Assembly (NCBI GenBank): GCA_018645325.1
Contig: JABGOU010000038.1
Location: 1 to 37,011, forward strand
DNA: 37,011 nucleotides
Reading direction: 5' to 3'
DNA from: Desulfobacula sp.
GTDB taxonomy: Bacteria > Desulfobacterota > Desulfobacteria > Desulfobacterales > Desulfobacteraceae
A program made the position numbers and the translations under genes. The notes under the pieces were generated by a model. That model saw only the letters and a list, made by a program, of their open reading frames with translations, made no database searches and had not been told where the DNA came from. Positions 1 through 22,411 of the stretch are shown here, one piece after another. The number at the start of each line of letters is the position of its first letter. Position 1 is the first letter of the stretch.

Positions 1-49
1 AGGGCTTTGTGCAAAATCCCAATATGCTTTTTTTTGTTTCTATCTATTT

Positions 50-559
50 TCATAAACTATTTAATACCTTAATAAACTCATCTGGGAGAGGTGATGGTTT
101 TTCTGTTTTCTGATCCACCACAACAGCCACAATATGACCCAGGGCCGCTATCTTGTTGCTTGTTTTATTCATGGCCTCAAATTTAATGGTAAAACTTGTT
201 TTACCCAGATGATCTGCAAAAACTTTTATACATAATTCATCATCAAACTTAACCGGTGATTTATACTGGCTTTTTGCTTCCACGTAATAAAAATTAAGAT
301 TGTTTTGAAGGAACCTGTTAAAAGAATACCCTATAATTTTCAAGTATTTTAAAAAGGCTGTATCAAACAGGGTAAAATAATTACCAAAAAATACATGGCC
401 ATTGGCATCTGTATCTGAAAATCGAATGTCTGCATTAATGGCGACCTGTTTTTTTTCAGGGGCAGGGTTATCTGAAACCTTTGCGACAGGCTTGTTTTTG
501 AAATCAGTTTTTAATATTTTTTTATGCAAACTCAAAGGCCTTTGGCCAGTCTTGGTCAA
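50..559 (-). CDS. Acyl-CoA thioesterase, YbgC/4HBT (hot-dog) family
   Basis: The protein is about 169 residues and should hydrolyse an acyl-CoA thioester in the cytoplasm; the substrate cannot be told. The hot-dog domain starts near residue 42 with the family pattern RFSDTDANGHVFFGNY, which contains the catalytic-type Asp and the following helix. The first 40 residues are an unusual basic, low-complexity extension. The only available start in frame is TTG at 559, with a TAA just upstream and no clear Shine-Dalgarno, so the true start may lie further in. It lies downstream of tRNA-Pyl on the same strand with an 80-nt gap, and no functional link to Pyl is evident. Family assignment is fairly sure; substrate is unknown. 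Confidence 0.75.
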   Translation of the reverse strand: MTKTGQRPLSLHKKILKTDFKNKPVAKVSDNPAPEKKQVAINADIRFSDTDANGHVFFGNYFTLFDTAFLKYLKIIGYSFNRFLQNNLNFYYVEAKSQYKSPVKFDDELCIKVFADHLGKTSFTIKFEAMNKTSNKIAALGHIVAVVVDQKTEKPSPLPDEFIKVLNSL

Positions 560-639
560 TATTTATGAATTGTCTGTATTTTAAAATGGCCTCTTTTATC
601 ATAATTTACTTTTTTATTATAGTGTATAGTCTGGATAAA

Positions 640-713
640 TGGCGGGAAGCCCGGGAGTTGCACCCGGCTACATGGATTTAGAGTCCATGTGATCTCATGT
701 CGATCCACTCCCC
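640..713 (-). tRNA. pylT: tRNA-Pyl (CUA anticodon), amber decoding
   Basis: On the minus strand this 74-nt sequence folds as a tRNA with the features peculiar to pyrrolysine tRNA. It has a 7-bp acceptor stem beginning GGGGAGT, a D arm closed by GATC/GATC, and only one base between the D and anticodon stems. The anticodon stem is 6 bp (CATGGA/TCCATG) around the loop CTCTAAA, with CTA at 679-681. The variable loop is 3 nt, and the T stem CCGGG/CCCGG encloses TGCAACT, which lacks the usual TTC motif. CCA is encoded. It lies 27 nt after the mtbB stop on the same strand, so the two are probably co-transcribed. It supplies the suppressor needed to read the UAG inside mtbB. Confidence 0.95.
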
Positions 714-740: not shown

Positions 741-2123
741 TTAAGACGTCCTCGTCATAAACCGTTTGACACAATTGATATCAATATCCAGCACTTTGGC
801 TATGTTGAACTTGGCTTCAATCCCTTTGGGAGAACCCGCAACGGGTGTGATTACACCGATTCCAAGATCAGTCCGTACTTCACTCATAATAACAGGATCT
901 GTAAGATGTTCAATATCAACCGAAAGTTTTTTGGCAACATATGCTTTTGCTTCGTCAATTTTCATGCCTTTGGACATTTGCATTCGGGCAACCAGATCTC
1001 CGGCTCCCCTCATTCCGCCCATTCCAGAGGCATGTGCATGTGTTATTGCCATTCCAAATGGATCGCCTACGCCAACCTACAGGCCGTCCAGGCGGCAAAT
1101 TTCCACCATGGCCTTGGATGACCTCGATACAATATCAACGGGTGGATGGTCTGTCATTGTTACCCCTCCCACACCCATCCCCATATTGACATGGATAGGG
1201 ATATTTGCAATCTCTCCCACGGGTTTCATAAAGGTAATGGTGCGGGCCATATTCCATGCCGATGACTTGCTGGTCTTGGTATTGGCTACAGGGCCGAAAA
1301 TGGTTGCTCCGGCAAGTTCAGCCATTTTTAACTGGTCGTGGGGATACATGCCTGCCAGACGATGACCTTTATACTCCAGCTCGCTGTGCATGCCCATGAC
1401 AAATTCACCTGCCGTGCCGAATTCTATACACATCTCAGGATACTTGTCCCTTAGTTCTTCTGTTGCCAGCAATGCGCCCAGAAAATCAGCATCTCCGGCA
1501 GCGCCTGATGTATCCAGGTTGATACCATCCGCCCCGGATTCATACATCAGGCTTGCAACATATACGATATCCTTGACCAGGTGTTCAACAGAAGCCTCAT
1601 AGGATTCCTGGGCTTCCTTGATCTTTCCCATTGGCATAAGTTCCATGGGATTTGGAAAAGGTCCGTCAGGCTGGCTGTAAAGGCCAAGATTGGGTTGTGC
1701 GCCATAGAATAAAGGAATGTGAGTACCAAGCAGGGCCTGTTCAAGGACAGGCTGTTCAGAGACTGCTATGGGCTTTATGGGCTTGTAACTATAATCCACG
1801 TGGGATAATTCCATGGTATCGGCACCCATCAGTTTTTCATAGATTTGCAGAGCCTGAATCCTGTCTACATTGACCCCGGCGCGCCTTATTTTCAAGGTGC
1901 ATGCATCATAGGTTAAAATAACTTCCTTTCCCGCTTCCACGCTCATAAATTTTTCACGGGCACAGAAAATATCCAGGAGGTGCTCATACTCGTCCCTGGA
2001 GAGGGCGGGCACCTTGGCACGGTCGGCAGCATCCTCGCTTCCCTGGATCAGGTCTGCCATAATTTCATCTTTTGTCACGGAAATGGGGGACCCTCCTCCC
2101 ATCCGGCTAAAATATCGAGCCAT
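741..2123 (-). CDS. mtbB: Dimethylamine:corrinoid methyltransferase MtbB with in-frame UAG (pyrrolysine 349)
   Basis: MtbB moves a methyl group from dimethylamine to its cognate corrinoid protein. Read through the amber codon at 1077-1079, the gene gives 460 residues, close to known MtbB length. The N-terminal 348 residues carry family signatures such as [23 protein letters not shown] and [10 protein letters not shown]. After Pyl349 the frame continues [13 protein letters not shown] and ends at TAA. In methanogen MtbB the pyrrolysine is flanked by nearly the same residues (DGI-Pyl-IGVGDP), so the UAG is a sense codon here and not a mutation. A strong AAGGAGGA site at 2127-2134 precedes the ATG. 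The corrinoid protein and the methyltransferase that accepts the methyl group are not in the window. Confidence 0.95.
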
Positions 2124-2221: not shown

Positions 2222-3592
2222 CTATTCTCTATCTTTTAAAGCTTTGCTAATGGCTTTACCCAAAATATTTACCATATCATCGATTTGTGATTCAGAAATC
2301 ACCATGGGTGGTGAAAATTGTAAAATATCTCCGATAAGTGGTCGCGTGATCAGACCCATCTTATAGGCAGTGTCCACAACTAAAGGAGCAAGGGGCGGGT
2401 CATATTTTGCTTTGGTTTTTTTGTTTTTTACCAGTTCCACCCCGACCATAAGACCTTTGCCCCGAACATCACCGATAATATCAAGACCAAGGGCCTGGAT
2501 TTTTTCTTTCAAAACCATGCCCATTTTCCCAGCGTTACCCACAAGGTCTTCATTCTCAATTATTTCAAGGTTTTTCAAGCCAACGGCGCAGGCCAGGGGA
2601 TGACCGCTATAGGTAAATCCATGGAAAAATCTTTCCCTTTGCTTAAATGTATCAAATATTTCACCGGAAAGGGCAACTGCTCCCAGCTGAACATAGCCGC
2701 TTGTAATACCTTTTGCCATGGTCATGAGGTCAGGGACTACCCCATCCCAGTGTTCAATACCAAACATTTTTCCAGTCCTGCCAAAGCCGTTAATAACCTC
2801 ATCTGCAATAAAAAGGACATCATTATCAGTGCAGATCTGTCTTATTTTTTCAAAGTATCCGGGCGGTGGTATTAATATTCCACCTGTTCCAATGATGGGT
2901 TCGGCAATAAAAGCAGCAACCCTGTTCCTGCCCAGTTCCGTGATTTTTTCTCCCAGAGCGGATGCACATTCAAGATTGCATGATTCAACTCTTTTCCCCC
3001 AGGGGCACAGGTAGCAATAGGGAGGATCAATATGGGCAAACCCGGGCAGCAAGGGTTCAAATCCTTCATGAAACCCGGGAAGCCTTGTTGCGCAAACTGC
3101 TCCGCATGACACACCATGATAGGCCCGGTTCCGTGTAATGATATAATCTTTGCTGTCCTGTCCTTTCAGAAACCAGTAAAATCTGGTCATTTTGAAAATG
3201 GTATCATTGCTTTCCGATCCACTGGAGGTGAAAAAAATTCTGGCATCTTTGACTGGAACCATTTTACTGATTTTTTGGGCCAATTGGATTGCTGGTACAT
3301 TTGCAAATTCATTAAAGGAATGATAGCTTTCAAGCTGCTCAAACTGTTCAACGGCTGCCTTGGTAAGCTCAGGTCGGCAATGCCCCACAGAACTATACCA
3401 TAAAGCAGCTGTGCCATCGTAATACTCATTGCCTTCCACGTCCCAGACCTTGCACCCTTTTCCTCTGGCAATGATTTTAGCTCCATTTTCCTGCAGAGCC
3501 CAAATGCTTGAGGTTGGATGAAAATAATAATCCTGATCTGCTTTTTTCAGTGCCTGGATTTCAGCCGGCATGAATTTTTTTTCTGTGTCCAT
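2222..3592 (-). CDS. Class III PLP aminotransferase (omega-amine/taurine type)
   Basis: This is a fold-type I, PLP-dependent transaminase of about 456 residues that transfers an amino group, usually a terminal amine, to pyruvate or 2-oxoglutarate. Visible signatures are SSGSESND (cofactor phosphate binding), DEVINGFGRTG (Asp contacting the pyridine ring) and TMAKGITSGY (Schiff-base Lys). A CX2CX8CX3C cluster lies in mid-protein and also occurs in the taurine aminotransferase of this window. The start is placed at 3592 because GGGGA lies 5 nt upstream; an ATG 12 nt earlier has no ribosome site. It stops at TAG. It is transcribed away from the aldehyde:ferredoxin oxidoreductase gene, so the pair could convert an amine to an aldehyde and then an acid. 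The substrate is not known. Confidence 0.8.
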   Translation of the reverse strand: MDTEKKFMPAEIQALKKADQDYYFHPTSSIWALQENGAKIIARGKGCKVWDVEGNEYYDGTAALWYSSVGHCRPELTKAAVEQFEQLESYHSFNEFANVPAIQLAQKISKMVPVKDARIFFTSSGSESNDTIFKMTRFYWFLKGQDSKDYIITRNRAYHGVSCGAVCATRLPGFHEGFEPLLPGFAHIDPPYCYLCPWGKRVESCNLECASALGEKITELGRNRVAAFIAEPIIGTGGILIPPPGYFEKIRQICTDNDVLFIADEVINGFGRTGKMFGIEHWDGVVPDLMTMAKGITSGYVQLGAVALSGEIFDTFKQRERFFHGFTYSGHPLACAVGLKNLEIIENEDLVGNAGKMGMVLKEKIQALGLDIIGDVRGKGLMVGVELVKNKKTKAKYDPPLAPLVVDTAYKMGLITRPLIGDILQFSPPMVISESQIDDMVNILGKAISKALKDRE

Positions 3593-3651
3593 TACAATCC
3601 CCATTAAAAATGAATTTTAATCAAAATTCAACATCTGATTAAAAAAAATAA

Positions 3652-4114: not shown

Positions 4115-5863
4115 ATGAAGGGTTTTTATGGAAAATTATTATCAATCGACCTTACGGATCAGTTATTTGATGAAATAGCCATTGAGGAAGAAGTTTTAAA
4201 ACAATATTTAGGGGTCAAGGGATTGGGGGCCTATTTGCTTAATAAATACAATCCGCCACAGGTTCCACCCCTGGACCAGGCCAATAATTTGATTTTCAGC
4301 ACAGGGCCAACAGCTGGAAGCAAGGTATGGGGCTCAAGCAGGTATGGGGTTTTTACCAAATCCCCTTTGACGGGTTTTTTTTCTGAATCCTATTCCGGGG
4401 GAAAAGTGCCCGAAGCCATGGATGCTGCAGGCTATGATGCAGTCATGATCCATGGCATATCAAAAGTTCCAGTGGTCCTTTCCATAGAGCCGGGACAGGT
4501 TGTTTTCAACAATGCCGAAGATTTATGGGGCAAAGATACCTTTGAAACAGAAGCCCTTATTAAAGACAGGTATGTAGACAAGGATAAAATTTTTAAAAAA
4601 AGCGGGGTCCTGGCCATTGGGCCGGCAGCTGAAAACGGTGTATGCTTTGGTATTATCCAGAATGATAACTGGCATTGTGCAGGACGAACCGGTGCCGGTA
4701 CTGTAATGGCATCCAAAAAAATAAAGGGAATCCTCTTCCAGGGAAGCAAAAAAAGAGAATACCATGATGAAAAGGCTCTCAAGTCTTTTGTAAAACATAT
4801 TGCTCAAGAGGGAAAGGATCATCCGGCAGTCAAGGCTTACAAGTCAATGGGAACATCCCAGATGGTAAAGGTTTTGAATAATAACAAGGCCTTTCCGACA
4901 CAATACTGGTCAAAGGGGTATTTTGACAAATGGGAGAATATAAGTGCAGATGCTTTGCACACCCAATGTAATGTGACCCCCACTGGCTGCTCCAAATGTT
5001 TCATGTCCTGCGGAAGACAAACTACCATATTAAAGGGACGTCACAAAGGCATGACTCTTGAGGGCCCGGAATATGAAACCATCTATGCTTTTGGCGGATT
5101 ATGCATGGTTGACAGCATTGAGGAGATAGCTTTTTTCCATGTGTTATGTGATCGCCTGGGAATGGATACCATCACGGCCGGTAATTTGTGCGCCTTTGCC
5201 ATAGAAGCTTCCAAACAAGGTAAAATAGATCTTGATATTGATTATGGGGATGTGATCGGCATAGAAAAACTGCTTCATATGATAGCCAAAAGACAAGGGC
5301 CAGGAGAAATACTTGCCCATGGTATTAAACATGCAGCAAAGCAATGGAACCTGGAGGATATTGCAGTGCATGCCAAGGGGCTGGAACCGGCCGGGTATGA
5401 TCCCAGGGTTTTCAAGGGAATGGGACTTGCTTATGGGGTGTCCGACAGGGGGGCTTGTCATTTGAGAACTACCTTTTATAAACCGGAGCTGGCAGGTATC
5501 AGTCCAATGGACAAGCTTGAAGGGAAAGCTGAAATTTTGATTGATTTTGAAGATCGCCTGACCATTTTTGACACCATGGTTCTCTGTCGTTTTTTCAGGG
5601 ATTTTTACACATGGGAAGAATTAGCGGTCATGATCCATTCATTGACCGGTCTAAAATCCGATAAAACTTCGCTTCAGGAAAAAGCCGGGAATATCGCCCA
5701 GGAGATCAGGAAATTTAATGTCCAGGAAGGATTGACCAGTGATGATGATCGGTTGTCAAAAGGACTGTTCAGAGAACTTACCGACACCAAAGCCAGGTTG
5801 ACCCATGAAGAATATGAATTTATGCTGGCTGAATATTATGAAATAAGGGGCTGGGCAGGTTAA
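4115..5863 (+). CDS. Aldehyde:ferredoxin oxidoreductase, tungstopterin family
   Basis: The 582-residue enzyme should oxidise an aldehyde to the carboxylic acid in the cytoplasm and reduce ferredoxin, using a tungsto-bis-pterin cofactor and one 4Fe-4S cluster. Length and domain order fit the AOR family. The N-terminal domain starts GFYGKLLSIDLT and carries the pterin-binding region GPTAGSKVWGSSRYGVFTKS. Cluster ligands are C292, C295 and C299 (CSKCFMSC) with the fourth at C491 (MVLCRF). GAGGAGA lies 6 nt before the ATG. It is the only plus-strand gene in the first 17 kb, divergent from the aminotransferase and convergent with pylC. The specific aldehyde is unknown; product of the neighbouring aminotransferase is one possibility. 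Confidence 0.92.
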   Translation: MKGFYGKLLSIDLTDQLFDEIAIEEEVLKQYLGVKGLGAYLLNKYNPPQVPPLDQANNLIFSTGPTAGSKVWGSSRYGVFTKSPLTGFFSESYSGGKVPEAMDAAGYDAVMIHGISKVPVVLSIEPGQVVFNNAEDLWGKDTFETEALIKDRYVDKDKIFKKSGVLAIGPAAENGVCFGIIQNDNWHCAGRTGAGTVMASKKIKGILFQGSKKREYHDEKALKSFVKHIAQEGKDHPAVKAYKSMGTSQMVKVLNNNKAFPTQYWSKGYFDKWENISADALHTQCNVTPTGCSKCFMSCGRQTTILKGRHKGMTLEGPEYETIYAFGGLCMVDSIEEIAFFHVLCDRLGMDTITAGNLCAFAIEASKQGKIDLDIDYGDVIGIEKLLHMIAKRQGPGEILAHGIKHAAKQWNLEDIAVHAKGLEPAGYDPRVFKGMGLAYGVSDRGACHLRTTFYKPELAGISPMDKLEGKAEILIDFEDRLTIFDTMVLCRFFRDFYTWEELAVMIHSLTGLKSDKTSLQEKAGNIAQEIRKFNVQEGLTSDDDRLSKGLFRELTDTKARLTHEEYEFMLAEYYEIRGWAG

Positions 5864-5907: not shown

Positions 5908-7149
5908 TCATGAAGGTTCCATGTCAGGGTTTATTTCATAGGGATTGGTATCAGCTAGAAGAGGCAGGTTGAATTTAACAGCCATGTCATTTAGAATCTG
6001 CTTGTGTTTTTTACTTGTTTCCCGGCGGTTGTTCCCCTTGATGATCAGGGTGGCCACCCATTTGCCGGCGCCTTTTACAAAGCTTGTCAAAGCCTCATCT
6101 GCTCCGAAAAAAAATGTTTCAAAATGAAGCGGGCCGCATGATTTCATTATATTTTCACCTTTGACGCAAATTCCTTTGGGACTTACCATGATATGCTCTA
6201 CAATTATATGTTTTGGTGCATGGTCAAGTTTTTCAGGCAGGGCAGGTGAATCAGGTTTTTTATTCAAGGCCTGATCTGCCAAAATTTTAACCATATTCAC
6301 TCCAGTGGAAGCATAAACCGCCATGGGGGTCTGACTCGGGAATCTGGCATCGATTTCCAGCATTTTCATTACTCCCGTATGCAGGATAACCTCAAAATCC
6401 ATAATACCCTCAAGTTTCATCTCTTGAGCAATGGTTAAAGCCGAGTTTTCAAAATCCCTGATAAGTTCCGGTTCAATCTCAACAGGTGCAGCAACCCTTT
6501 TGCAGTCATAGTTTTCATCCATATAAAGTTCTGTAATCTGAAGGGTTTTATATCTGCTTTTGTTACCAATTATTTCCAGGGAATATGAAGGCCCATTTAT
6601 ATATTCTTCCATTATCCAATGATCTTGTTCTAATTGATCTTTTGGATATGGGATATCAAATGATTTTACCCAGTCCTTTTTTGAAGATATGATTTTAACG
6701 CCATGACTGCCGCTCCCCTTGCTGGGCTTTACCAGAACAGGATAGCCGCATGCAGGCCAGTTCCGGGGTTTTGTAATGGCGAGTTTTGAAAACATATTAT
6801 TTGATCTTTGTTTTGACGACGAAATCTCATATGCTTTAAAGTCAAAACAAAGGGGGGTGGTTGAGCTTTTCTGCCATAGTTTAAGCGTTTCCAGAGCCTT
6901 ATCATTTTCCAGGGCCGGTAGAACAAGGTCAGCTTTTTCAAGAAAAACAGATGCCTTTTTTATCTGACAGATATCAAGTTTGACAAAGACGTCGGCAAGT
7001 CCTTTTGCAGGTGGATCAGAGGTTTTATCCAGCACCATGACTTCAAACCCGGCTTTTTTTGACAAATAGGCAACCTCCACCCCCTGGAGCCCGCCTCCGA
7101 CAATAGCTATTAACAAGATATTCTCCTTTAAAACTAAGGGTCCACTCAT
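5908..7149 (-). CDS. pylC: 3-methylornithine--L-lysine ligase PylC (pyrrolysine biosynthesis)
   Basis: PylC joins (3R)-3-methyl-D-ornithine to the epsilon-amine of lysine with ATP, the second step of pyrrolysine synthesis. The protein has an N-terminal nucleotide-fold start (IAIVGGGLQGVEVAYLSKKAG), which matches PylC proteins. It then has an ATP-grasp core: the lid and Lys motif VLVKPSKGSGSHG, the hinge region IMEEYINGPSYSLE and the Mg-binding stretch LEIDARFPSQTP. The ATG at 7149 overlaps the pylSc stop by 4 nt (ATGA). A TTG at 7116 preceded by AAAGGAG fits PylC N-termini better and may be the true start. It is convergent with the aldehyde oxidoreductase gene. pylB and pylD, the other biosynthesis genes, are not nearby. 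Confidence 0.92.
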   Translation of the reverse strand: MSGPLVLKENILLIAIVGGGLQGVEVAYLSKKAGFEVMVLDKTSDPPAKGLADVFVKLDICQIKKASVFLEKADLVLPALENDKALETLKLWQKSSTTPLCFDFKAYEISSSKQRSNNMFSKLAITKPRNWPACGYPVLVKPSKGSGSHGVKIISSKKDWVKSFDIPYPKDQLEQDHWIMEEYINGPSYSLEIIGNKSRYKTLQITELYMDENYDCKRVAAPVEIEPELIRDFENSALTIAQEMKLEGIMDFEVILHTGVMKMLEIDARFPSQTPMAVYASTGVNMVKILADQALNKKPDSPALPEKLDHAPKHIIVEHIMVSPKGICVKGENIMKSCGPLHFETFFFGADEALTSFVKGAGKWVATLIIKGNNRRETSKKHKQILNDMAVKFNLPLLADTNPYEINPDMEPS

Positions 7150-7988
7150 AGGTTGAGTCGAACGCCATCAAGCCAGGTCAGGCTCCTGGTATATTTGCCC
7201 AATGTATTGCTTTTATCTTTTGCCATTAAAAGTCGTTCAACTCCAAAGCCGATACCAACCCAGGTTTCATTTATTTTCCAGGCATCATCCAGGGGGTGAG
7301 GCCCCATTGCGCCTGATCCAAGTTCCAGGCCATGGGGCTTTTGGGTCACTACATCAATGGTGCTGCCATAAACGGCAGACTCTTCTGTTTCAAGTTCATA
7401 GTCATCAATGTGAGAAGCTTCCATGACAAATCCGGCCAGCTCTTCCAGCCTTGTCTGGCGTTTTTCCATGGGAAGGCCGAATTCACAGACATTCAGCATG
7501 GTAAATTCGCTTGTATGACGGGCGCCTTCTGATTCCTTTCGAAAGCACGAGCCAATCTCAAATATTCCAATGGGCTTTTCCCATATTCTAAGCAGATCCT
7601 TCATGATATAATACAGATGGGGTGCAAGCATGGGGCGCAGACATCGGTTTGAGTCAACCCAGAAAATCTGTTTTGTCAGAGGATGGAAATCTGTGATGGA
7701 CATTTTTTTAAGAAGGCTTTTGGCCATCATGGTGGGCGTGGTTACCTGGACAAAACCCTTTGAGGTTAAAGCCTTTACAAGCTTATCACAAAGAAGGCAA
7801 AATCTTGAACGCCTTTTATTGCTGCGCATTTTTTCCAATTTTATTTTTTGAGTTTTTACCAGAGCTGTTATCAGCATCTGAAAGCTTTTATTTCTCTTAG
7901 TTTCATCCTCAAACTCCTGGGCCAGATTTTTAGTGTCGGCATTTAGTTCCAGCAACCGGTTTTTTTGAGTTTCAGTCCATTTTTTCAT
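7146..7988 (-). CDS. pylS: Pyrrolysyl-tRNA synthetase, catalytic subunit (PylSc)
   Basis: It activates pyrrolysine and charges tRNA-Pyl. The 280 residues correspond to the class II catalytic domain alone, as in other bacteria where the tRNA-binding N-terminal part (PylSn) is a separate protein. Motif 2 is in FEIGSCFRKESEG, and motif 3 is GFGVERLL. The pyrrolysine pocket is well kept: RPMLAPHLY corresponds to the A302/L305/Y306 wall of the Methanosarcina enzyme. N166 and C168 (TMLNVC) match N346 and C348, and Y207 (AVYGST) matches Y384. It follows the choline-sulfatase gene by 36 nt and overlaps pylC. The ribosome site is weak (AGGG, about 10 nt upstream). No PylSn gene is visible in this window. 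Confidence 0.96.
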   Translation of the reverse strand: MKKWTETQKNRLLELNADTKNLAQEFEDETKRNKSFQMLITALVKTQKIKLEKMRSNKRRSRFCLLCDKLVKALTSKGFVQVTTPTMMAKSLLKKMSITDFHPLTKQIFWVDSNRCLRPMLAPHLYYIMKDLLRIWEKPIGIFEIGSCFRKESEGARHTSEFTMLNVCEFGLPMEKRQTRLEELAGFVMEASHIDDYELETEESAVYGSTIDVVTQKPHGLELGSGAMGPHPLDDAWKINETWVGIGFGVERLLMAKDKSNTLGKYTRSLTWLDGVRLNL

Positions 7989-8024
7989 AATAATGCATAC
8001 CCTGTATCAAATAAAAATATTTTG

Positions 8025-9596
8025 TTAACCTTCCTGTCTTTTCCCCAGCCTTCCGTCTGGTTCAGGTATTTTGGGAGATGGAAACCTGGCTTTACGCTCA
8101 AGAGCATTTAGATCAAGATGATTGCGCATGTATTTTTTTGAAGCATCTTCAAATGGCTGAAAATCCCAGGGTGTGAACCTGCCCTTTCTCATTGATCTGT
8201 CAACCAGCCGTCTGCGATTCTGGTTTGCGACGATCTGTTCCCTGAGAACTTTTGTATCCCATTTTTTTGTTACCTGGTCATAAAACGTTTTACGCAATTC
8301 TTCATATTCTTTCTGCCCTGCAAGGTTGTTGATTTCATCCGGATCATTGTCCAGATCATAAAGCTGCTCTGGGTCCACATCACAATAGATATATTTATAT
8401 CTGCCATTCCTTAGCATAACTATCGGGGAAATTGCTCCTTCACAAAGGATTTCACCATAAACAAGTGCCTTCTCATCTTCATCTTCGCCATTCAGCAGGG
8501 GGAAAAGGCTTTTTCCATCAATTGAATCAGCATATTCAACAGGTTTTCCTCCACAAGCAATGTCTGTAAGCGTGGGCAGAAAATCAACAAGGGAGACGGG
8601 CTGATTTACCCTTCTGGGAGAAAACCTTCCAGGCGCCCGGATAATCATGGGAACACGGGAAGCCCATTCAAAGTATGACATTTTATACCACATTCCCCTT
8701 TCACCCAGCATCTCACCGTGATCAGATGTGATCACAATTATGGTATCGTCCTTAAGGCCATTTTTTTCCAAAGCACTGACAAGGCATCCCACTTTATCGT
8801 CTGCATAACTGATCTCGCTGTAATAGGCGTGGCGGGCATTGAGGATACGCTCTTTTGTCTGCTCATATTCACCCATTGCGCTGACATGATAGAGCCTCTT
8901 GCAATGGGGATCCAGTTTTTCATAATCAATTTGAGGAATTTTTGGCATATCAATTTCATCATGATCATACCGATCCCAGTATTCTTGTGTAATGGCAAAA
9001 GGGTCATGGGGATGCGTAAAAGAGGCAAGCAGGAAAAAGGGGCGTTCATCATCGCTTCTTGCAAGTTCATTTATTTTTCTAACAGAATTAAAGGCGACTT
9101 CCTCGTCAAAATCAATTTGATTACTTGTTACGCATTGACCCGACTGAACCACACTAAGCATGTTATGGTACCATGTGGGACGTCTGTCAAAATTATCCCA
9201 GTCAGGGGTCCATCCAAAATCGCCGGGATATATGTCGGTTGTAAGCCTGTCTTCAAAGCCGTGGGTCTGATCAGACCCCACAAAATGCATTTTGCCTGAA
9301 AGACAGGTGTAATAACCATTGTCACGCAGATAATGGGCAAAGGTGGGAACATCCTGGGAAAAAGGGCTTGAATTATCATAGGCGCCGATTCGGGAGGCCA
9401 ATTGCCCGGTCATCATGGAAGCCCGGGAAGGCGCGCACAAAGGGCTGTTGCAATAGGCATTCTCAAAAATAACACCTTCATCGGCAAGTTTTGAAATATT
9501 GGGTGCCTTTACAACCTTATTCCCATAACAGGGCAGGGCAGGTGCCGCCATTTGATCAAACATGATAAAAAGAATGTTGGGCTGTTTTTGAGCCAT
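8025..9596 (-). CDS. betC: Choline-sulfatase (Cys-type sulfatase)
   Basis: The enzyme hydrolyses choline-O-sulfate to choline and sulfate. The 523-residue sequence has the sulfatase signature CAPSRASMMTGQ with C54, the residue converted to formylglycine, and R58. Metal-binding residues are in the N-terminal IMFDQ and in ITSDHGEM. Blocks typical of BetC rather than general arylsulfatases are SGKMHF, ERLTTDIYP-type, FGWTPDWDNF, RPTWYHNM, FTHPHDPFA and the C-terminal TPWDFQPFEDA. No signal peptide is seen, so it is cytoplasmic. The radical-SAM maturase that would activate C54 without oxygen lies directly upstream on the same strand, followed by pylSc 36 nt downstream. AAGGAAA precedes the start by 8 nt. 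The choline released would feed quaternary-amine metabolism. Confidence 0.9.
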   Translation of the reverse strand: MAQKQPNILFIMFDQMAAPALPCYGNKVVKAPNISKLADEGVIFENAYCNSPLCAPSRASMMTGQLASRIGAYDNSSPFSQDVPTFAHYLRDNGYYTCLSGKMHFVGSDQTHGFEDRLTTDIYPGDFGWTPDWDNFDRRPTWYHNMLSVVQSGQCVTSNQIDFDEEVAFNSVRKINELARSDDERPFFLLASFTHPHDPFAITQEYWDRYDHDEIDMPKIPQIDYEKLDPHCKRLYHVSAMGEYEQTKERILNARHAYYSEISYADDKVGCLVSALEKNGLKDDTIIVITSDHGEMLGERGMWYKMSYFEWASRVPMIIRAPGRFSPRRVNQPVSLVDFLPTLTDIACGGKPVEYADSIDGKSLFPLLNGEDEDEKALVYGEILCEGAISPIVMLRNGRYKYIYCDVDPEQLYDLDNDPDEINNLAGQKEYEELRKTFYDQVTKKWDTKVLREQIVANQNRRRLVDRSMRKGRFTPWDFQPFEDASKKYMRNHLDLNALERKARFPSPKIPEPDGRLGKRQEG

Positions 9597-9676
9597 TTAT
9601 TATTTCCTTATATTGGGTATCATTTTAGATGTTTAAAAAATATTTATCACAATACCTTGGATTATAACTTTAAAAT

Positions 9677-10915
9677 TTATTTTCCGCAGCATTTTTTAAA
9701 CTTAATACCGCTTCCACAAAAGCAAGGATCATTTCGCCCGGATTTAGGAATTTTGTCAATCATTTTCTGTTCTTTTGTCCGCAGGTTCTGGATTGTTTCA
9801 CAAAGAATGTCAGACCTGTGTCTTGTATGGTTGAAAAAAGTTTTCAACCCAGGGCACAGACAGCTTATATTTTGGGGCAAATTTTGTGCATACATCCGAT
9901 TTTTAAGACAGTCTCCGGCGCATAGTTCAAGGTGATCACAGGTTGAACATTTTTCATTCCAAAGTTTTTTTTGTGCACCAAATTTTACATAGGCAGGAGA
10001 ATCAAGCATTTCTTCCCAGGATGTTTCCATTATATTGCCGAGTTTTAACTGTTTTTCAACAAAAAAATCACAGGGATAAATATCTCCATTGTATTCAACA
10101 ACAAAATACTGGCAGCAATTTTTTCCCATAACGCAGATATCATTTATTCCATCAATTTTTTTTGAAAGAATAGAATCAAAATTTCTGACTGACACGGAAA
10201 ATATATCATTGGGATACCATGAATCAAAAAGGTTGCACATAAAACGTCCCCATTGTTCTGCTTTTATGGAAAAGGGAAGCAGGTTCTTATTCTTGTCAAA
10301 TTCAACGCAGGGAATATATTGATGAAAATAAAATCCCATATTTTTCAAATAGTGATAAATCTCATGTGCATTGTCAACATTGGCCTGGCTGACAAGGGTA
10401 AGGATATTGAATTGCACATTATAGCGTTTTAATATTTCGATTCCTTTTATCGCCTCTTTGTGTGTGCCATTTCCCTTAGTTGTAACCCGGTACTTATTGT
10501 GAATTTTTTCAGGCCCATCAAGACTGCACCCCACAAGAAATTTATATCTGGCAAACAATTGGGCCATCCTTTCTGTAATAAGGGTGGCATTGGTCTGAAC
10601 CGAGTTGTTGATCCTGGCTTTGGCAGTGCCATGTTTTTTTTGAAGTTCGATAACTTTTAAAAAAAAATTGGTCCCCATCAGTGCAGGCTCACCACCCTGC
10701 CAGCAGATTGAATAGACAGGCTGCCGTGTTCCCATATATGTTTTGATCAAGCGTTCAAGCACTGGATCAGGCATCCTGTGTTTCTTTTTTTCTGGATATA
10801 GATTTTTTTTTGGCAGGTAAAAACAATATTCACAGTCAAGATTGCAGTCTGCGGAAACAGGTTTTACAAGTAAGCTAAAGGGGTGGGTGAGATTTTTTTT
10901 CCGGGAGCTATTCAT
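9677..10915 (-). CDS. Anaerobic sulfatase-maturating radical SAM enzyme (anSME) with C-terminal SEC-C motif
   Basis: It oxidises the active-site Cys of a sulfatase to formylglycine without oxygen. The radical-SAM cluster motif is CNLDCEYC (C24, C28, C31 from the ATG at 10915). ICWQGGEP follows, as in anSMEs. The SPASM half has many Cys (CVMGKNCCQY, YPCDFF, CSTCDHLELCAGDC) for two extra clusters. The last 20 residues form a SEC-C zinc motif (NDPCFCGSG...KKCC), an appendage not needed for catalysis. I place the start at ATG 10915, which overlaps the upstream stop by 8 nt; a GTG at 10927 is the alternative. Its target is almost certainly the choline-sulfatase encoded next. It is not PylB, which is a different radical SAM family. 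Confidence 0.9.
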   Translation of the reverse strand: MNSSRKKNLTHPFSLLVKPVSADCNLDCEYCFYLPKKNLYPEKKKHRMPDPVLERLIKTYMGTRQPVYSICWQGGEPALMGTNFFLKVIELQKKHGTAKARINNSVQTNATLITERMAQLFARYKFLVGCSLDGPEKIHNKYRVTTKGNGTHKEAIKGIEILKRYNVQFNILTLVSQANVDNAHEIYHYLKNMGFYFHQYIPCVEFDKNKNLLPFSIKAEQWGRFMCNLFDSWYPNDIFSVSVRNFDSILSKKIDGINDICVMGKNCCQYFVVEYNGDIYPCDFFVEKQLKLGNIMETSWEEMLDSPAYVKFGAQKKLWNEKCSTCDHLELCAGDCLKNRMYAQNLPQNISCLCPGLKTFFNHTRHRSDILCETIQNLRTKEQKMIDKIPKSGRNDPCFCGSGIKFKKCCGK

Positions 10916-12344
10916 TTTTTTTGACACGCTTTACATACTTTTCAAGATCAATACCAACATCCGGGTCAATGATCATATCAGGACTGTTTTCAAGAATTTG
11001 TTTAAATTTTTGGTTTGCCTTTAGTTTTACATCCAGGCTGCCATTTTTTTCCCAGTCGTCAAAGCTCTTTGTTTCAGAAACAGAGGGTTCCCAAAATTTT
11101 CTGCAATATTTCAATGTGGTTGGATGCGTCAGATATGATCCGCCATGCCCCACTTCTTTTATTGTATTTATTGAAAAATCATCTTCAAAATAGTCAATCC
11201 CTTTTACCACACAGGCTGCTCTTGACATTATTTCTTCATCAATGATGAACTTTTCATAGGAGACAGTCATGATGGAGTCAAGTATTCCAAAACATTCATT
11301 AACGACATTTACACCTGACATGGCCACCATTAAATAATTCTGCATAGTTTCAAACCCAGCCTGGCAGTCAATTATTTTAGAATCTGTCAGCCCTGCCATA
11401 CATCTTGTGGGAAGACCATAAAGTTCTGCGGCCATCTGGATGCCTGCGATATTTATTTGATTAGAAACAGGTGAGCCCGTGATATAGTTTGCCGTTCGCA
11501 TATCAGGAATGGCTGAAGCCGGTGAATAAATAAAAGGGGTTCCCTCAAAAATAAGCTGGGATAAAACTAGCCCTGCAAGGATCTCAACATTCTGTAATAC
11601 CACGGTTCCCATGGGGTCGGCAGGAGCTGTCACCCCTGACATGGCGCATGTTAAGACCATTATGGGCTGACCTTCTTTTGCATAGGCCAGCATGGTTTCA
11701 CAAGGGGTTTTATCATATCGAAGAGGACTTAAGGGGTTTAATGACACGCCAATAAGATGTTTGTTTTTAAGGCAGTCAGGGTCCCCCATATATATTTTAA
11801 CCATGTCAAACATCTGGTTTATTTCCTTTTGGCTACCAACATACCCAAAAAGAGGCTTGTCCGTATGATGCAGAAGCTGTTTGAAAATATCCAGGTAACG
11901 ATGGGGATTTTTTACTTCACCTGGTTCCACAGGAATCTGGCCTACTATGGAACATATTTTGCTCTGTTGACCCAGTTTGTACAAATTTATCAGGTCTTTC
12001 ATGGTTCCGGGTCTTCTGCCCATATCCAAATCCTGAATATAAATGGGGCCGTTATTCATACTGACATGAATCCCCTGTTGTTCTTTACCGACATTTATTG
12101 TTCGTTCACAATTTAACGCCTCCCATTGAAAAGTCTCAGGCGAAGAGTTAACAGCCTTATCCACCATTTCTTCTTGTATAAAAACAGTCTGCCCGTCTAC
12201 TTTTGCACCATGGGCTTTGAATATTTCAAGGCATTCTGCTGACTGAAAAATAATTCCTGTGTTTGCAAGGATATCTAAACTTGTTTCATGTATTTTTGAT
12301 AAAGTCTGCGTCTCAAGTAATCGGAAATTAGAAGCTATCTGCAT
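10908..12344 (-). CDS. MttB-family corrinoid methyltransferase lacking pyrrolysine (probably betaine-type)
   Basis: The 478-residue protein belongs to the trimethylamine methyltransferase (MttB) superfamily but has no internal amber codon. It therefore belongs to the non-Pyl branch that demethylates quaternary amines such as glycine betaine (MtgB), proline betaine or carnitine, methylating a corrinoid protein. Family blocks include SVSMNNGPIYIQD-like, CAMSGVTAPADPMGT, YSPASAIPDMRTANYITGSP, AGLTDSKIIDCQAGFETMQN and GVNVVNECFGILD. The TAG stop overlaps the start of the maturase gene, and AGGAG lies about 12 nt before the ATG. It is preceded by a sigma-54 activator on the same strand. With choline-sulfatase two genes on, choline or glycine betaine is the likeliest substrate, but sequence alone does not decide it. 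No corrinoid protein is encoded nearby. Confidence 0.85.
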   Translation of the reverse strand: MQIASNFRLLETQTLSKIHETSLDILANTGIIFQSAECLEIFKAHGAKVDGQTVFIQEEMVDKAVNSSPETFQWEALNCERTINVGKEQQGIHVSMNNGPIYIQDLDMGRRPGTMKDLINLYKLGQQSKICSIVGQIPVEPGEVKNPHRYLDIFKQLLHHTDKPLFGYVGSQKEINQMFDMVKIYMGDPDCLKNKHLIGVSLNPLSPLRYDKTPCETMLAYAKEGQPIMVLTCAMSGVTAPADPMGTVVLQNVEILAGLVLSQLIFEGTPFIYSPASAIPDMRTANYITGSPVSNQINIAGIQMAAELYGLPTRCMAGLTDSKIIDCQAGFETMQNYLMVAMSGVNVVNECFGILDSIMTVSYEKFIIDEEIMSRAACVVKGIDYFEDDFSINTIKEVGHGGSYLTHPTTLKYCRKFWEPSVSETKSFDDWEKNGSLDVKLKANQKFKQILENSPDMIIDPDVGIDLEKYVKRVKKNE

Positions 12345-12440: not shown

Positions 12441-13859
12441 TCAGTGGACAATAAGAGGAGGGGACATGTTCTTCAGCTTTCTTGAAAGGGTTGACTGGCT
12501 TATCCCCAACACTTTGGCAGCTTTTCTCTGGCTGCCGTATTTTTTTATGACTTTATTAATAATTTTTAATTCAAAAGCTTTGATTGTTTCTTTATAATTT
12601 TCTTTTTTAATGGAAACAGAGCTTGAAACATTAGTCTGTGAAAATATTGAAGGAAGATGTTCAGTTTCAATGACATCTCCTTCAGTCATGGTCACAAGTC
12701 GCTTAATAAGATTTTCCAATTCTCTTATATTTCCAGGGAAATTATATTCGCAAATCAGATTTTGAGCCGGTTTTGAAAGCAGTTTGCTGGTTTTAAATTT
12801 CTTGTTTAACTGGTTTAAAAAAAAGGTGGCAAGTGGAACGATCTCTTCTTTTCTTTCAGTCAGGGCAGGTATTTCTAATGGAACAACATTCAGTCGGAAA
12901 TACAAATCACTTCTAAACAGCTTTTCTTCAACCATCTGCTCAAGATTCCTATTGGTTGCAGCAATAATTCTTGTATTAATTTTAATGGATTTAACACCAC
13001 CCACCCGCATCAATTCCATACTTTCAAGAAATTTTAACAGCTTTGCCTGGGCAGGAAGCGGAATCTCTCCAATCTCATCAAGAAAAAGAGTTCCTTTGTC
13101 TGCTATTTCAAAGAGTCCTTTTTTCCCTTTTTGAGATGCTCCTGTGAAAGCGCCGCTTTCATGGCCAAATAATTCAGATTCAATGACCGATGCTGTTATT
13201 GCACCACAATTCAAATCAGCAAAAGGGAAGTGCCGCCGGTCAGATAATTGATGGATCAGTTTTGCAATCATGGACTTGCCCACACCTGATTTGCCTGTGA
13301 TTAAGAGGGGTACGTCATATTTAGCGGCACGCACGGCTGTTCTGATAATCTTTTCCATGGCCGGGCTTTTTATCACCATGCTTTCAAAATGGTTTGCGGC
13401 AAGACCCAGGTCTGAAAAATCCATCCGCATTTTGTCTTCTTGAATGTCTTCAATTTCAAGGGTTTCAGCAAGGCGGTTGATGTGGGATATATCCCTGTCA
13501 TTTACAAGGACAAAAAGGATGGCTCCTTGGCTGTCAAAAATGGGGATTCCCGTGGAAAGGATTTTTTTCTTATTGCGGGTGGTCTGAATTAAGGAGATGG
13601 CTTTTTTCTGTTTAATTACCAAAGCTGAAACGGATGGCTCATAAAAGCCTTCATCAACCAGATCTTTAACATTTCTACCCAGAACCTGGGAACTTTTGAA
13701 ATCAAACATCTCTTCTGTTGCACGGTTTACCATAACAACCATTCCTGTTGAATCAACAACAAAAAGGCCGTCTTTTGAATGCTTCATTATTGATTCAAAT
13801 ATCAGCTCAAAATCTTTGGCATTGAGTCTGTCATGAAGACTGAATTTTTTTTTAAACAT
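12441..13859 (-). CDS. PAS domain sigma-54-dependent transcriptional activator
   Basis: The 472-residue protein has an N-terminal PAS sensor (about residues 18-135), a AAA+ core (about 160-385) and a C-terminal TyrR/Fis-type helix-turn-helix ending in GSQRKAAKVLGISQSTLSRKLK. The core has Walker A GKSGVGKS, the sigma-54 contact loop ESGAFTGAS, Walker B TLFLDEIGE and an R-finger region RLNVVPLEIP. No receiver domain is present, so it should sense a small ligand or redox state directly. It lies 96 nt upstream of the methyltransferase gene in the same direction and probably controls the choline-sulfate/betaine/Pyl gene run. I did not find a convincing -24/-12 promoter in the gap. Confidence 0.9.
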   Translation of the reverse strand: MFKKKFSLHDRLNAKDFELIFESIMKHSKDGLFVVDSTGMVVMVNRATEEMFDFKSSQVLGRNVKDLVDEGFYEPSVSALVIKQKKAISLIQTTRNKKKILSTGIPIFDSQGAILFVLVNDRDISHINRLAETLEIEDIQEDKMRMDFSDLGLAANHFESMVIKSPAMEKIIRTAVRAAKYDVPLLITGKSGVGKSMIAKLIHQLSDRRHFPFADLNCGAITASVIESELFGHESGAFTGASQKGKKGLFEIADKGTLFLDEIGEIPLPAQAKLLKFLESMELMRVGGVKSIKINTRIIAATNRNLEQMVEEKLFRSDLYFRLNVVPLEIPALTERKEEIVPLATFFLNQLNKKFKTSKLLSKPAQNLICEYNFPGNIRELENLIKRLVTMTEGDVIETEHLPSIFSQTNVSSSVSIKKENYKETIKAFELKIINKVIKKYGSQRKAAKVLGISQSTLSRKLKNMSPPLIVH

Positions 13860-17526: not shown

Positions 17527-18084
17527 ATGAAACCATTAGCAAAGTTGACAAAAGAACATGGCAATATACTTGAAGGCCTTGATTATCTTTCCAGGGCAAA
17601 GGATGCGCTTGAGAAAAACAGGTGCCCTCAAAAAAAATTCTTTGAATCTGCAGTCCTGTTTTTCAGAGAATATGCCGACAAATTCCACCATTATAAAGAA
17701 GAGTATCTTCTATTCAGCATCCTTGCCAGGAATAAGGAAGGAGAGATTGATCTTGAAATGGGTTCTCTTCGATATCAACATGAACTGAACCGGGAGTGTA
17801 TCGCTAAAATTGAAAAATCTCTCAATGGTTATGAAATGGGAAGTGAAATTGCGATTACAACACTTTTATTTAATCTTGCCGCATTTATCTCGATTCTAAG
17901 ACGCCACATTTACAGAGAAGACCAATTATTTTTTCCAATGGTCGAAGCTGAATTATCTGAAAATGAAAAACAAACTTTACAAAACCAGTTTGATCAGGAA
18001 GAGGCGGCTGTGGATCGTGAAAGCATCATCCATAGAAATCAGAAAAGACTTCAGGAAATGGCTGCATTGATATCCGAGATATAA
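17527..18084 (+). CDS. Hemerythrin-like (HHE) di-iron protein
   Basis: The 185-residue protein is a four-helix bundle expected to bind a di-iron centre and to sense or bind oxygen or nitric oxide in the cytoplasm. Ligand candidates lie at H11 (KEHGNIL), the HHYKEE segment near residue 55, YQHELN near 88 and RRHIYRED near 123. These are in the right order for HHE proteins. The start has GAGGGG only 2 nt upstream, closer than usual. The gene lies 6 nt before the regulatory kinase frame (21 nt before the preferred start) in the same transcript. Its FNR-type promoter supports a role in oxygen or nitrosative stress. Confidence 0.85.
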   Translation: MKPLAKLTKEHGNILEGLDYLSRAKDALEKNRCPQKKFFESAVLFFREYADKFHHYKEEYLLFSILARNKEGEIDLEMGSLRYQHELNRECIAKIEKSLNGYEMGSEIAITTLLFNLAAFISILRRHIYREDQLFFPMVEAELSENEKQTLQNQFDQEEAAVDRESIIHRNQKRLQEMAALISEI

Positions 18085-18105
18085 AATGATGTGTATGGGA
18101 AAGCT

Positions 18106-20313
18106 ATGATTAAAAAAAAAATAAATTGTTGGGAGTACAGGGGTTGCGGGTTAGAGCCAGGTGGGAAAAACAGTGCTGAAAAAGGAGTGTGTCCGGCAGC
18201 TTCAGATCGGTCTTTTTCAGGTATAAATTCCGGCAAAAATGCTGGAAGGTTCTGCTGGGCTGTAACCGGGACCCATTGTGACAGCGAACAACAAGGCTGT
18301 TTTTCAGAAAAACGAAAAAAATGCCATGATTGTGATTTTTTCCATATGGTGGCCGCTGAAGAGGGAACACAGAACCTAAGGACAAAGTTTTTAAGATTTG
18401 TGCAAAACTTTCAAGGTGAAAAATCTATCCTAAAAAATTTGAGTTTGAAGATTTTCCGCTCTGGTGAACGGTTTGTCTTTCAAGGAAAAGATACAGGAGA
18501 GGCATATATTATCCGGAGAGGGTCTTGTATCGTTATAGTAGAAAAGAATGGAGAGCTTCATCCAGTAGATCACAGGAGTGAGGGAGACATTGTCAACATG
18601 AGTGCTTTGTTCACAGGTGAACCAAGTATGGCCAATGTTGAAGCTGAAACTGAGATTGAAGCCTGGGTCATTGAGAAATCGGAGTTTGAAGCCATCCCGG
18701 AAAATGATCCCGGGCTTTGGAAGTTTCTTACTGAAATTGTTGCAGACAGGTTTGATTCCAAAAGACCAACCTCATATCGAACGATTGAGAAATATTTAGC
18801 AACCGATATTATCGGCCGAGGCGGATATAGCATTGTTTACAAAGGAATAGAGATTGCTACAAACAAAAATGTTGCCATTAAAATGATCCGGCATCATATT
18901 GCCCTGGATTCTGATTTCCTTGAAAAGCTCAGAAAGGAAGCTGAGATTATCAACAAGTTAAATCATGATAACATTATCAAAGTATTTGATATGGTGGAAC
19001 GATATCGTACTGTGTTTATTATCATGGAATATCTTGACGGGGAATCCCTCTTGGAAAAAATCCAAAGGGATAGAAAGATTGTTCCCCATAATGCAATCAA
19101 TTATTTAATACAGTCCTGCTTGGCAATCGAATATGCACACAACAATAGCATTCTTCATAAAGATATTAACCCTGGAAATCTTATGGTTCTGAATAATGGT
19201 AAAGTCAAATTGGTGGATTTTGGTCTTGCCTGCTATGTTCAGGATGATGATGAACTTTTTGATGGAGCCTACCCCTACCTTGCACCGGAATTGATTAAAG
19301 GAGACATTGCAGATTTAAGAAGTGAAATATATGCTTTAGGGATCTCAGCTTATGAAATGGTTACCGGTAAAAGACCTTACCCAGAAAAAGATAAAGCCAT
19401 GTTTGCCCGGATGCGTTGTGCTCAAGAAATACCAGATCCATCACTGATTGTTCCAGAACTTCCCAAAAATCTTAAACAGTTTATAGTAAAAGCATGCCGG
19501 ATAGTTCCCAAGGATAGGTATTCGAACATTGGTGAAGCCATTAAAGAATTGAAATATGAAGAAGATCAAATATCATTAAGTATAAAGAATATAGATATTG
19601 TTGCCCAAACACATATAGGACTTATAAAATCCTCAAACGAAGATCGATATCTTGTAAGAACCATGGATGATAACGCCTTGCTTTTGGCCGTTGCAGACGG
19701 TCTGGGTGGAGATGTTTCCAGTGATGTTGCAGCTGAAATAACAAAAGACAGGCTTTCCCGCTTGAAATATCTACAATCAGGCAAAGAAGCTGAAGGTCTT
19801 GATACCTTTGCAAGAGATCTTGATCTGATTATTCATAAAAGGGCCCTGGCAGATTCCGGTTTGACATACATGGCAACCACCCTGGCTTGTATTGTTCTCA
19901 AATCAGATTTGATTCATTGGCTCAATGCAGGGGATAGCCGCTTCTATATTCTAAGGAATGATCAGCTGCTACAGATAACCCATGACCACACTTTAGCCAG
20001 AGTTCTTGTGGAAGCGGGACGGTTAAAACAGGAAGATGCTGATGAGCATTACTCAAGTAAAATACTGGATCAATGCTTAGGATACAATATGTGTGACCCT
20101 GAAACCGGAAGTGTCAGAGTAAAAAAGAACGATCTTATTATCTTAGCAACTGATGGCCTTTATAAAATGGTAAAGGAAAAAACCATTCTGCAGATCCTAT
20201 TGTCCAACACAACCTTGAAAGAAAAAATGGAGATCCTTGTGAACTCAGCTCTAAAATCAGGGGGAGAAGACAACCTCACTATAGTGCTTGCCCACATAAA
20301 ACAGACACTTTAA
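18106..20313 (+). CDS. Cys-rich / cNMP-binding / Ser-Thr kinase / PP2C phosphatase fusion
   Basis: The 735-residue protein joins four parts. Residues 6-88 are a Cys-rich module of the type seen at the N-terminus of deltaproteobacterial sensors (CWEYRGCG, CPAA, GRFCWAV, CHDCDFF). Residues 105-215 are a cyclic-nucleotide-binding domain (FRSGERFVFQGKDTGEAYII). Residues 233-485 are a Hanks-type kinase with glycine loop GRGGYSIVYKG, VAIKM, HKDINPGNL, DFGLA and APE. Residues 500-735 are a PP2C phosphatase with NEDRY, VADGLGGD, ATDGL and GGEDNLT. All catalytic residues look intact; the kinase has HKD in place of HRD. The start is ATG 18106 with GGGA upstream; a GTG at 18091 is the alternative. It probably integrates a redox or nucleotide signal, sharing a transcript with hemerythrin. 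Confidence 0.88.
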   Translation: MIKKKINCWEYRGCGLEPGGKNSAEKGVCPAASDRSFSGINSGKNAGRFCWAVTGTHCDSEQQGCFSEKRKKCHDCDFFHMVAAEEGTQNLRTKFLRFVQNFQGEKSILKNLSLKIFRSGERFVFQGKDTGEAYIIRRGSCIVIVEKNGELHPVDHRSEGDIVNMSALFTGEPSMANVEAETEIEAWVIEKSEFEAIPENDPGLWKFLTEIVADRFDSKRPTSYRTIEKYLATDIIGRGGYSIVYKGIEIATNKNVAIKMIRHHIALDSDFLEKLRKEAEIINKLNHDNIIKVFDMVERYRTVFIIMEYLDGESLLEKIQRDRKIVPHNAINYLIQSCLAIEYAHNNSILHKDINPGNLMVLNNGKVKLVDFGLACYVQDDDELFDGAYPYLAPELIKGDIADLRSEIYALGISAYEMVTGKRPYPEKDKAMFARMRCAQEIPDPSLIVPELPKNLKQFIVKACRIVPKDRYSNIGEAIKELKYEEDQISLSIKNIDIVAQTHIGLIKSSNEDRYLVRTMDDNALLLAVADGLGGDVSSDVAAEITKDRLSRLKYLQSGKEAEGLDTFARDLDLIIHKRALADSGLTYMATTLACIVLKSDLIHWLNAGDSRFYILRNDQLLQITHDHTLARVLVEAGRLKQEDADEHYSSKILDQCLGYNMCDPETGSVRVKKNDLIILATDGLYKMVKEKTILQILLSNTTLKEKMEILVNSALKSGGEDNLTIVLAHIKQTL

Positions 20314-21611: not shown

Positions 21612-21623
21612 AGGTTAGTCAAG

Positions 21624-21640
21624 AATCCTTTTTAAGGATT
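21624..21640. other. Small hairpin in the gntR-ackA gap
   Basis: AATCCTT and AAGGATT are perfect 7-bp arms around a TTT loop. On the transcribed minus strand the hairpin is about 12 nt before the ackA ATG and takes in the only purine-rich ribosome site (AAAAGGA). It might limit ackA translation or act as a processing site. Confidence 0.4.
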
Positions 21641-21648
21641 TTCCATTA

Positions 21649-22311: not shown

Positions 22312-22343
22312 TATTGAAATCCTCCTCTGTAACTATTCAAACC

Positions 22344-22411
22344 TTATACTTTCCCGTTCATAGGATAAAAAATATTTTATCCCGGCATGATTCAGAACAA
22401 GGAAAGTATAA
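22344..22411. promoter_or_regulatory. Nested inverted repeats in the ald-gntR gap
   Basis: An outer perfect 11-bp inverted repeat (TTATACTTTCC at 22344-22354, GGAAAGTATAA at 22401-22411) encloses an inner 8-bp hairpin (GGATAAAA/TTTTATCC, loop AATA, 22363-22382). The inner hairpin could end ald transcripts. The outer arms, 57 bp centre to centre, could be a pair of inverted operators for the GntR protein. Confidence 0.5.

Follow-up and report, generated by a model that had tools for sequence, protein, structure and literature searches.

A split pyrrolysine locus in Desulfobacula: pylSc and pylC behind a choline-sulfatase gene, pylB at the contig edge

Genes of the locus

The locus considered here carries genes for pyrrolysine (Pyl) in a stretch of 37,011 bases from a Desulfobacula sp. 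(the window), which is the whole of one contig (C90:1-37011) of the assembly G000, comprising 4.39 Mb in 157 contigs and rated 90.3% complete. Two runs of genes on the minus strand, with a single opposite-strand gene between them, hold pylSc and pylC in one run and the tRNA gene pylT and the start of pylB in the other, and the sequence ends inside this pylB.

The first run, on the minus strand, has six genes, those for a sigma54 regulator, a non-Pyl MttB homologue, an anaerobic sulfatase maturase and a choline-sulfatase, followed by pylSc and pylC, and the spacings between them are 96, -20, 80, 36 and -4 nt. At the head of the choline-sulfatase module stands a PAS/AAA+ sigma54-dependent activator (12441..13859), 88% identical to the gene that precedes the maturase and the choline-sulfatase gene in a relative, G021. 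It is followed by the MttB-superfamily methyltransferase (10908..12344; PF06253, 373.2 bits), which has Leu at the Pyl column, by the anaerobic sulfatase maturase (anSME), a radical SAM/SPASM protein with the motif CNLDCEYC (9677..10927; TIGR03942, 400.4 bits, cut-off 349.45), and by betC, the putative choline-sulfatase gene, with the Cys-type motif CAPSR at residue 54 (8025..9596; TIGR03417, 749 bits, cut-off 433.45). Across a junction of 36 nt (7989..8024) lie pylSc, for the catalytic subunit of the Pyl-tRNA synthetase PylRS (7146..7988; TIGR02367, 319.3 bits, cut-off 178.15), and pylC (5908..7149; TIGR03909, 392.7 bits, cut-off 248.3); both exceed curated cut-offs, and a tRNA-Pyl gene is present in the same locus. 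The initial annotation had described the order from the MttB homologue to pylC, overlaps or gaps of at most about 80 nt, and the lack of a pylB between pylSc and pylC; all of this holds, with profile matches above the cut-offs and the MttB homologue identified by PF06253.

The second run, also on the minus strand, comprises a class III aminotransferase gene (2222..3604; 83% identical to the gene in the matching position of a relative, Candidatus (Ca.) Desulfobacula maris, G014, of the same genus), the dimethylamine methyltransferase gene mtbB with an in-frame UAG as codon 349 (741..2123; PYLIS_2 match, 77 bits), pylT, a tRNA-Pyl (CUA) gene of 74 nt identified by a tRNA match (640..713), a gene for a 4HBT-family thioesterase between pylT and pylB (50..559; PF13279; 74% identical to the G014 gene in the matching position), and the 5' end of pylB with 17 complete codons, truncated at the contig edge (1..53). 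Between the two runs, on the plus strand, lies the gene for an aldehyde ferredoxin oxidoreductase (AOR; 4115..5863; 89% identical to the G014 gene), divergent from the aminotransferase gene and convergent with pylC. A contiguous Sc-B-C-D-Sn order is not found, as AOR, aminotransferase, mtbB, pylT and thioesterase genes stand between pylSc-pylC and pylB.

Pyl genes at the contig edge and in the genome

The initial annotation had listed pylB as missing, which proves to be an effect of the contig edge. Positions 53..1 of the minus strand read ATGAAAATAGAT..., corresponding to MKIDRNKKKHIGILHKA, and the pylB of G014 starts with MKKVENKKKHAAILQKA; 11 of the 17 residues and 41 of the 53 bases are identical, and none of 100,000 mononucleotide shuffles attained the latter value. 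In both genomes the pylB start overlaps the thioesterase stop by 4 nt, and a blastn alignment of window positions 3-623 with the G014 locus L087 crosses the thioesterase-pylB junction at 79.2%. The absence of pylB from the locus is ruled out by this gene start, and a second, full pylB, the only one of its length in the assembly, lies at C103:133728-134765 (508 bits).

The G014 pylB in the matching position has 374 codons and is followed by pylD and pylSn, the order being mtbB, pylT, thioesterase, pylB, pylD, pylSn. At their ends, inside mtbB, the G014 contigs C377 and C16 overlap exactly over 55 bases, so that AOR, aminotransferase, mtbB, pylT, thioesterase, pylB, pylD and pylSn form one stretch in that genome. 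The trio pylB-pylD-pylSn occurs in the same order in G021, with 94, 83 and 94% identity to G014 over the parts present. From these relatives, pylD and pylSn are predicted to lie past the edge of the window contig. Behind pylSn, a further protein is encoded in both G014 (L087:3975-4301) and G021 (L100:12511-13086), the G014 copy being without a Pfam match. A 4HBT thioesterase is encoded in or beside the pyl runs of four genomes (window 50-559, G014 L087:6740-7258, L126:2411-2821 and L146:1145-1600), the last two being a Desulfohalobiaceae and a Desulfobacteraceae metagenome-assembled genome (MAG); we know of no role of such an enzyme in Pyl synthesis.

The assembly contains one match to pylSc (E <= 1e-20) and one to pylC (E <= 1e-40), both in the window. 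A search for a complete pylSc-B-C-D-Sn operon elsewhere in the assembly found none, and its presence there is ruled out by the single pylSc, the single pylC and the lack of a pylD match. With a 73-nt native-type query, the window copy was the sole tRNA-Pyl match in the assembly apart from a chance match of 20 nt, which excludes a second tRNA-Pyl gene there. The MttB family has 25 matches, five of them genes with one UAG each, and these five UAGs share one alignment column within AG-[GQ]-UAG-[GA]-DSK. Together with one mtbB and one mtmB with UAG, seven UAG methyltransferase genes are spread over seven contigs. Thus, Pyl would be needed for methylamine use in general, and, since all seven genes would have to rely on the single pylSc found, exclusive control of Pyl by choline-O-sulfate is unlikely.

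The full pylB on C103 is preceded by a relic of pylSn that covers 33 of 89 model positions and contains an internal UAG (relic and pylB together at L085:15612-16802), and this pylB falls inside the native Desulfobacula pylB clade (tree; 98/95, 11 rows). Judged from their translations, the genes flanking this pair are of cobalamin type and of VWA/MoxR type. The G014 counterpart of this locus, recognized by common genes on one side, has pylB, a pylSn that is intact and a separate pylT of 73 nt, and the other G014 pylB (C16) forms a separate branch with one sequence from the genome G010 (100/100). In the pylSc tree, the genes of the window, G014 and a further genome, G022, lie outside the native Desulfobacula group, in a set of nine rows (96/91) together with a Gemmatimonadetes MAG and five sequences, most of which carry the label Desulfosarcina or Desulfosarcinaceae; the grouping with G022 has values of 97/79 and is not starred. 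The pylC genes of the window and G022 are sisters (90/88, not starred), the window pylC being not firmly placed. The adjacency of pylSc and pylC is common to G022 (C430), and therefore the pair may predate its position behind betC. Most simply, the native pyl set would have been displaced by a second one and left behind only pylB and the pylSn relic on C103.

G014 has two distinct tRNA-Pyl genes, of 74 nt (L087:7408-7481) and 73 nt (L088:9070-9142), and two pylSn genes, whereas its assembly gave a single match to pylSc. G010, rated 96% complete, has two pylB, two pylSn and the start of a pylC (L090, L091, L092), and neither pylSc nor pylD was found in it at the cut-offs used.

The choline-sulfatase module and its junction with pylSc

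Besides exceeding the TIGR03417 cut-off, BetC has the C-terminal choline-sulfatase domain and the CxPxR motif, and its best matches in the PDB are solved choline sulfatases, so that it is predicted to be a choline-sulfatase. The maturase, likewise above its cut-off, has CxxxCxxC and SPASM. The MttB homologue scores below the TIGR02369 cut-off for trimethylamine methyltransferase (318.5 versus 525 bits) and has Leu at the column where the five other MttBs of the genome have UAG. Among solved structures, those closest to it are PDB 9yce, a glycine betaine methyltransferase, and the related entry 2qne, at 297 bits each.

Among 38 genomes searched, betC exceeds the cut-off in three, the genome of the window, G014 and G021. 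In G014 the MttB homologue, anSME and betC are present at 88, 80 and 86% identity, without pylSc behind them; the next same-strand open reading frames (ORFs) of at least 150 aa, 1.2 kb further on, encode Cas3, Cas5d, Csd1 and Cas7 (L211:5561-11448, G014:C231), presumably of a type I-C system. In G021 a sigma54 gene directly precedes anSME-betC on a contig of 3.4 kb. By gene content, then, the choline-sulfatase module is separable from pylSc. Proteins of the same type as the MttB homologue are encoded next to pyl genes in other genomes too, at 63% identity in the genome G002 (C290; L094:3691-5124) and at 42% directly before pylT-pylSc in L120 (8262-9695), and no betC match was found in either pyl locus; the occurrence of these proteins suggests a looser, older association of MttB-type methyltransferases with pyl loci.

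Homology to the G014 betC stops at 8022 and homology to the G014 pylSc starts at 7991, leaving between them a spacer of about 30 nt that is private to the window, and no 12-mer of this spacer is repeated within the window. The 36-nt gap contains no stable hairpin, and its minus strand has neither a sigma70-like nor a terminator-like match. Because of the tight spacing and the lack of such a hairpin and of such matches, read-through from betC would be expected, and co-transcription of betC with pylSc and pylC is plausible. The claim that the Pyl genes are embedded in a choline-sulfate run therefore stands in part: pylSc and pylC look like the tail of that run, and the locus also has a pylB, at the contig edge. 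The sigma70 scan of the window gave 45 matches versus 35.1 +/- 6.4 expected, and the best of them (11/12; minus strand 2196-2169) lies between the aminotransferase gene and mtbB and is a candidate promoter of the second run.

The neighbourhood of pylSc was compared in 80 named pylSc loci, out of 370 matches, including contigs of G014, G022 and the genome G023; many contigs of this set are short, and a neighbouring gene is often just out of view. No match to betC or anSME was found in these 80 loci (tblastn, E <= 1e-4). When the ORFs 5' of 88 pylSc genes were called mechanically, a same-strand ORF ended close upstream of 49, no such ORF was present for 37, and the remaining two were at a contig edge. 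The upstream gap is at most 50 nt for 26 pylSc genes, and the upstream gene is a URO-D methyltransferase in 13 of them and pylD in five, while a sulfatase stands directly 5' of pylSc in the window only. On these counts, a position of pylSc behind methyl-transfer genes is ordinary and the choline-sulfatase is the odd partner. The pylSc of G014 lies behind genes for LacI, a URO-D methyltransferase, a RACo-type activase and a corrinoid protein, with a gap of 21 nt, and no pylC follows within the 294 bases left on the contig. Among the loci examined, the betC-pylSc junction was observed in this genome alone, and none of the titles and abstract openings listed from the open-access literature mentions it; one article mentions both choline sulfate and pyrrolysine, in unrelated passages (PMC6716910). 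The specific tie between Pyl and choline-O-sulfate proposed in the initial annotation is not borne out, as G014 has the betC module without pylSc, its pylSc lies behind a corrinoid-methyltransferase run, and UAG genes occur on seven contigs.

Two further gene groups of the window may be mentioned. Positions 17527-20313 hold a hemerythrin-domain gene and then a gene for one protein that combines cNMP-binding, Ser/Thr kinase and PP2C phosphatase domains. A run at 20409-28654 encodes acetate kinase, a GntR regulator, alanine dehydrogenase, a class III aminotransferase, a thiamine pyrophosphate enzyme and a second PAS/sigma54 activator, and its Pfam families would fit a possible pathway for taurine or sulfoacetaldehyde.

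Interpretation of the locus

Direct observations are the identities, order and spacing of the genes, the start of pylB and the fact that relatives possess each of the two modules separately. The account that is likely to be correct, with good though not full confidence, is a rearranged but probably complete Desulfobacula Pyl locus of two same-direction runs with the opposite-strand AOR gene between them, with read-through from betC and a displaced native operon. The first run would be a self-contained quaternary-amine module of sigma54 activator, non-Pyl methyltransferase, sulfatase maturase and choline-sulfatase, behind which the pylSc-pylC pair would have come to lie in this lineage. Read-through from the module promoter into pylSc-pylC would let both rise on choline-O-sulfate or related quaternary amines. 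The second run, beginning with the aminotransferase gene and the UAG-containing mtbB and continuing through pylT, thioesterase and pylB to pylD and pylSn past the contig end, would supply tRNA-Pyl, PylB, PylD and PylSn, and the products of both runs would jointly make and charge Pyl for all seven methyltransferase genes with UAG, of which mtbB is in the window and six are on other contigs. With seven such genes to serve, basal expression or a further promoter would be expected.

Several points weigh against this account. The place of pylD and pylSn is extrapolated from two relatives. In the assembly, pylD was not found by a family search (50 of 60 candidates scored) or with the G014 protein as query (best E 0.07), nor were a full-length pylSn and the remainder of the second-run pylB found there. 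G014 also looks incomplete, with no pylC match at E <= 1e-40 and none behind its pylSc. A scan for sigma54-site patterns gave no signal (48 matches versus 50.7 expected), and the evidence for the betC-pylSc junction is a single assembly, for which reads were not available. The initial statement that pylD and pylSn are missing is not borne out: neither pylD nor a full pylSn was found in the assembly, but both are predicted behind pylB as in G014 and G021.

It should be noted that the same anatomy is compatible with a different regulation, in which pylSc and pylC are read from a promoter of their own and their neighbourhood has no regulatory meaning. The labile position of pylSc, behind different genes in different relatives, and the genome-wide demand for Pyl speak for this possibility, which deserves some weight although it is the less likely one. 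Against it, no sigma70-like match was found on the minus strand at 7989-8963 in a consensus scan that covers that promoter type only, and the frequency of close upstream ORFs, with a URO-D methyltransferase in half of the tight cases, indicates that pylSc may commonly be transcribed by read-through from genes of catabolism, though 37 of the 88 pylSc genes have no such ORF. It is improbable that the betC-pylSc junction is a misassembly that joins a choline-sulfatase module and a pylSc-pylC pair from different places. The junction is private to one fragmented assembly, both of its sides have other neighbours in G014, and homology to G014 breaks on either side of the spacer; however, nucleotide identity to G014 is alike on both sides (83.7% for the MttB homologue to betC, 81.9% for pylSc and 84.4% for AOR), the GC content is similar, the join falls cleanly between genes, and the 12-mers of the spacer do not recur in the window. 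Very improbable is the initial reading of scattered pathway genes, with pylB, pylD and pylSn not at the locus and Pyl dedicated to choline-O-sulfate or betaine use, which could appeal to the terminator-free 36-nt gap, the lone pylB on C103 and the absence of pylD and full pylSn from the assembly, but is countered by the pylB that begins at the contig edge, the pylB-pylD-pylSn trio directly behind the thioesterase gene in G014 and in the same order in G021, the demand for Pyl from seven methyltransferase genes with UAG, each on a different contig, and the G014 betC module without pylSc.

The rearranged two-run locus can be set beside known systems. General bacterial orders are pylTScBCDSn or pylSnScBCD, with interruptions allowed, and in 'Ca. 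M. alvus' pylB lies about 0.7 Mb from pylTSCD (PMC3941956); the scattering, in the initial annotation not known from described Pyl clusters, therefore has precedent, in this case and in interrupted bacterial clusters. Earlier descriptions cover Pyl use in Desulfobacula-related sediment bacteria (PMC8318568) and, in archaea, the duplication of pylS and pylB (PMC9071458). The window resembles the bacterial pyl cluster of PMC3941956 in the families of its tRNA, PylSc, PylB and PylC and in an adjoining Pyl methyltransferase gene, but it is split into pylSc-pylC and pylT-thioesterase-pylB (with pylD and pylSn predicted to follow), with AOR, aminotransferase and mtbB between the parts, and its pylSc lies behind a choline-sulfatase gene. 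With the G014 locus it has in common the block of AOR, aminotransferase, mtbB, pylT, thioesterase and pylB and a pylSc that is 84% identical, whereas the G014 pylSc lies behind corrinoid-methyltransferase genes in the opposite direction relative to mtbB, has no pylC behind it, and is on another contig than the betC module.

Choline-O-sulfate is converted to glycine betaine in bet clusters by oxidation. Alphaproteobacterial bet clusters with betC (PMC12442346) likewise have a choline-sulfatase gene within a quaternary-amine cluster, but lead from choline-O-sulfate to glycine betaine, whereas the window betC is beside an anaerobic maturase and a methyltransferase. In the MthB/MthK system of Eubacterium limosum (PMC12155760), choline use is linked to a non-Pyl protein of the MttB superfamily whose substrate is phosphocholine, an acidic choline ester; unlike that system, the window has a choline-sulfatase with its maturase and no adjacent kinase gene. 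No choline kinase gene was found beside the MttB homologue among the window genes scanned, the kinases there being an acetate kinase and a Ser/Thr kinase-PP2C protein of 740 aa, which is encoded on the opposite strand at a distance of 4.2 kb. By analogy with phosphocholine, choline-O-sulfate itself is a candidate substrate of the MttB homologue. It is a bold and improbable extension that the MttB homologue demethylates choline-O-sulfate, with BetC removing the sulfate before or after, and that the sigma54 activator also switches on pylSc-pylC; if this were true, a sulfated osmolyte would turn on genetic-code expansion and, through it, the subsequent consumption of trimethylamine, dimethylamine and monomethylamine by the cell.

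The locus is a new arrangement of known parts, and the apparent lack of genes is corrected as a consequence of the contig end. Related species have the pyl gene set in split form, with its parts attached to catabolic runs that differ between them, and in this genome the native pyl set was apparently displaced by a second one, with pylB and a pylSn relic remaining. If pylSc and pylC are indeed read from the choline-sulfatase module, the decoding of Pyl could be controlled by a sulfated osmolyte as substrate.

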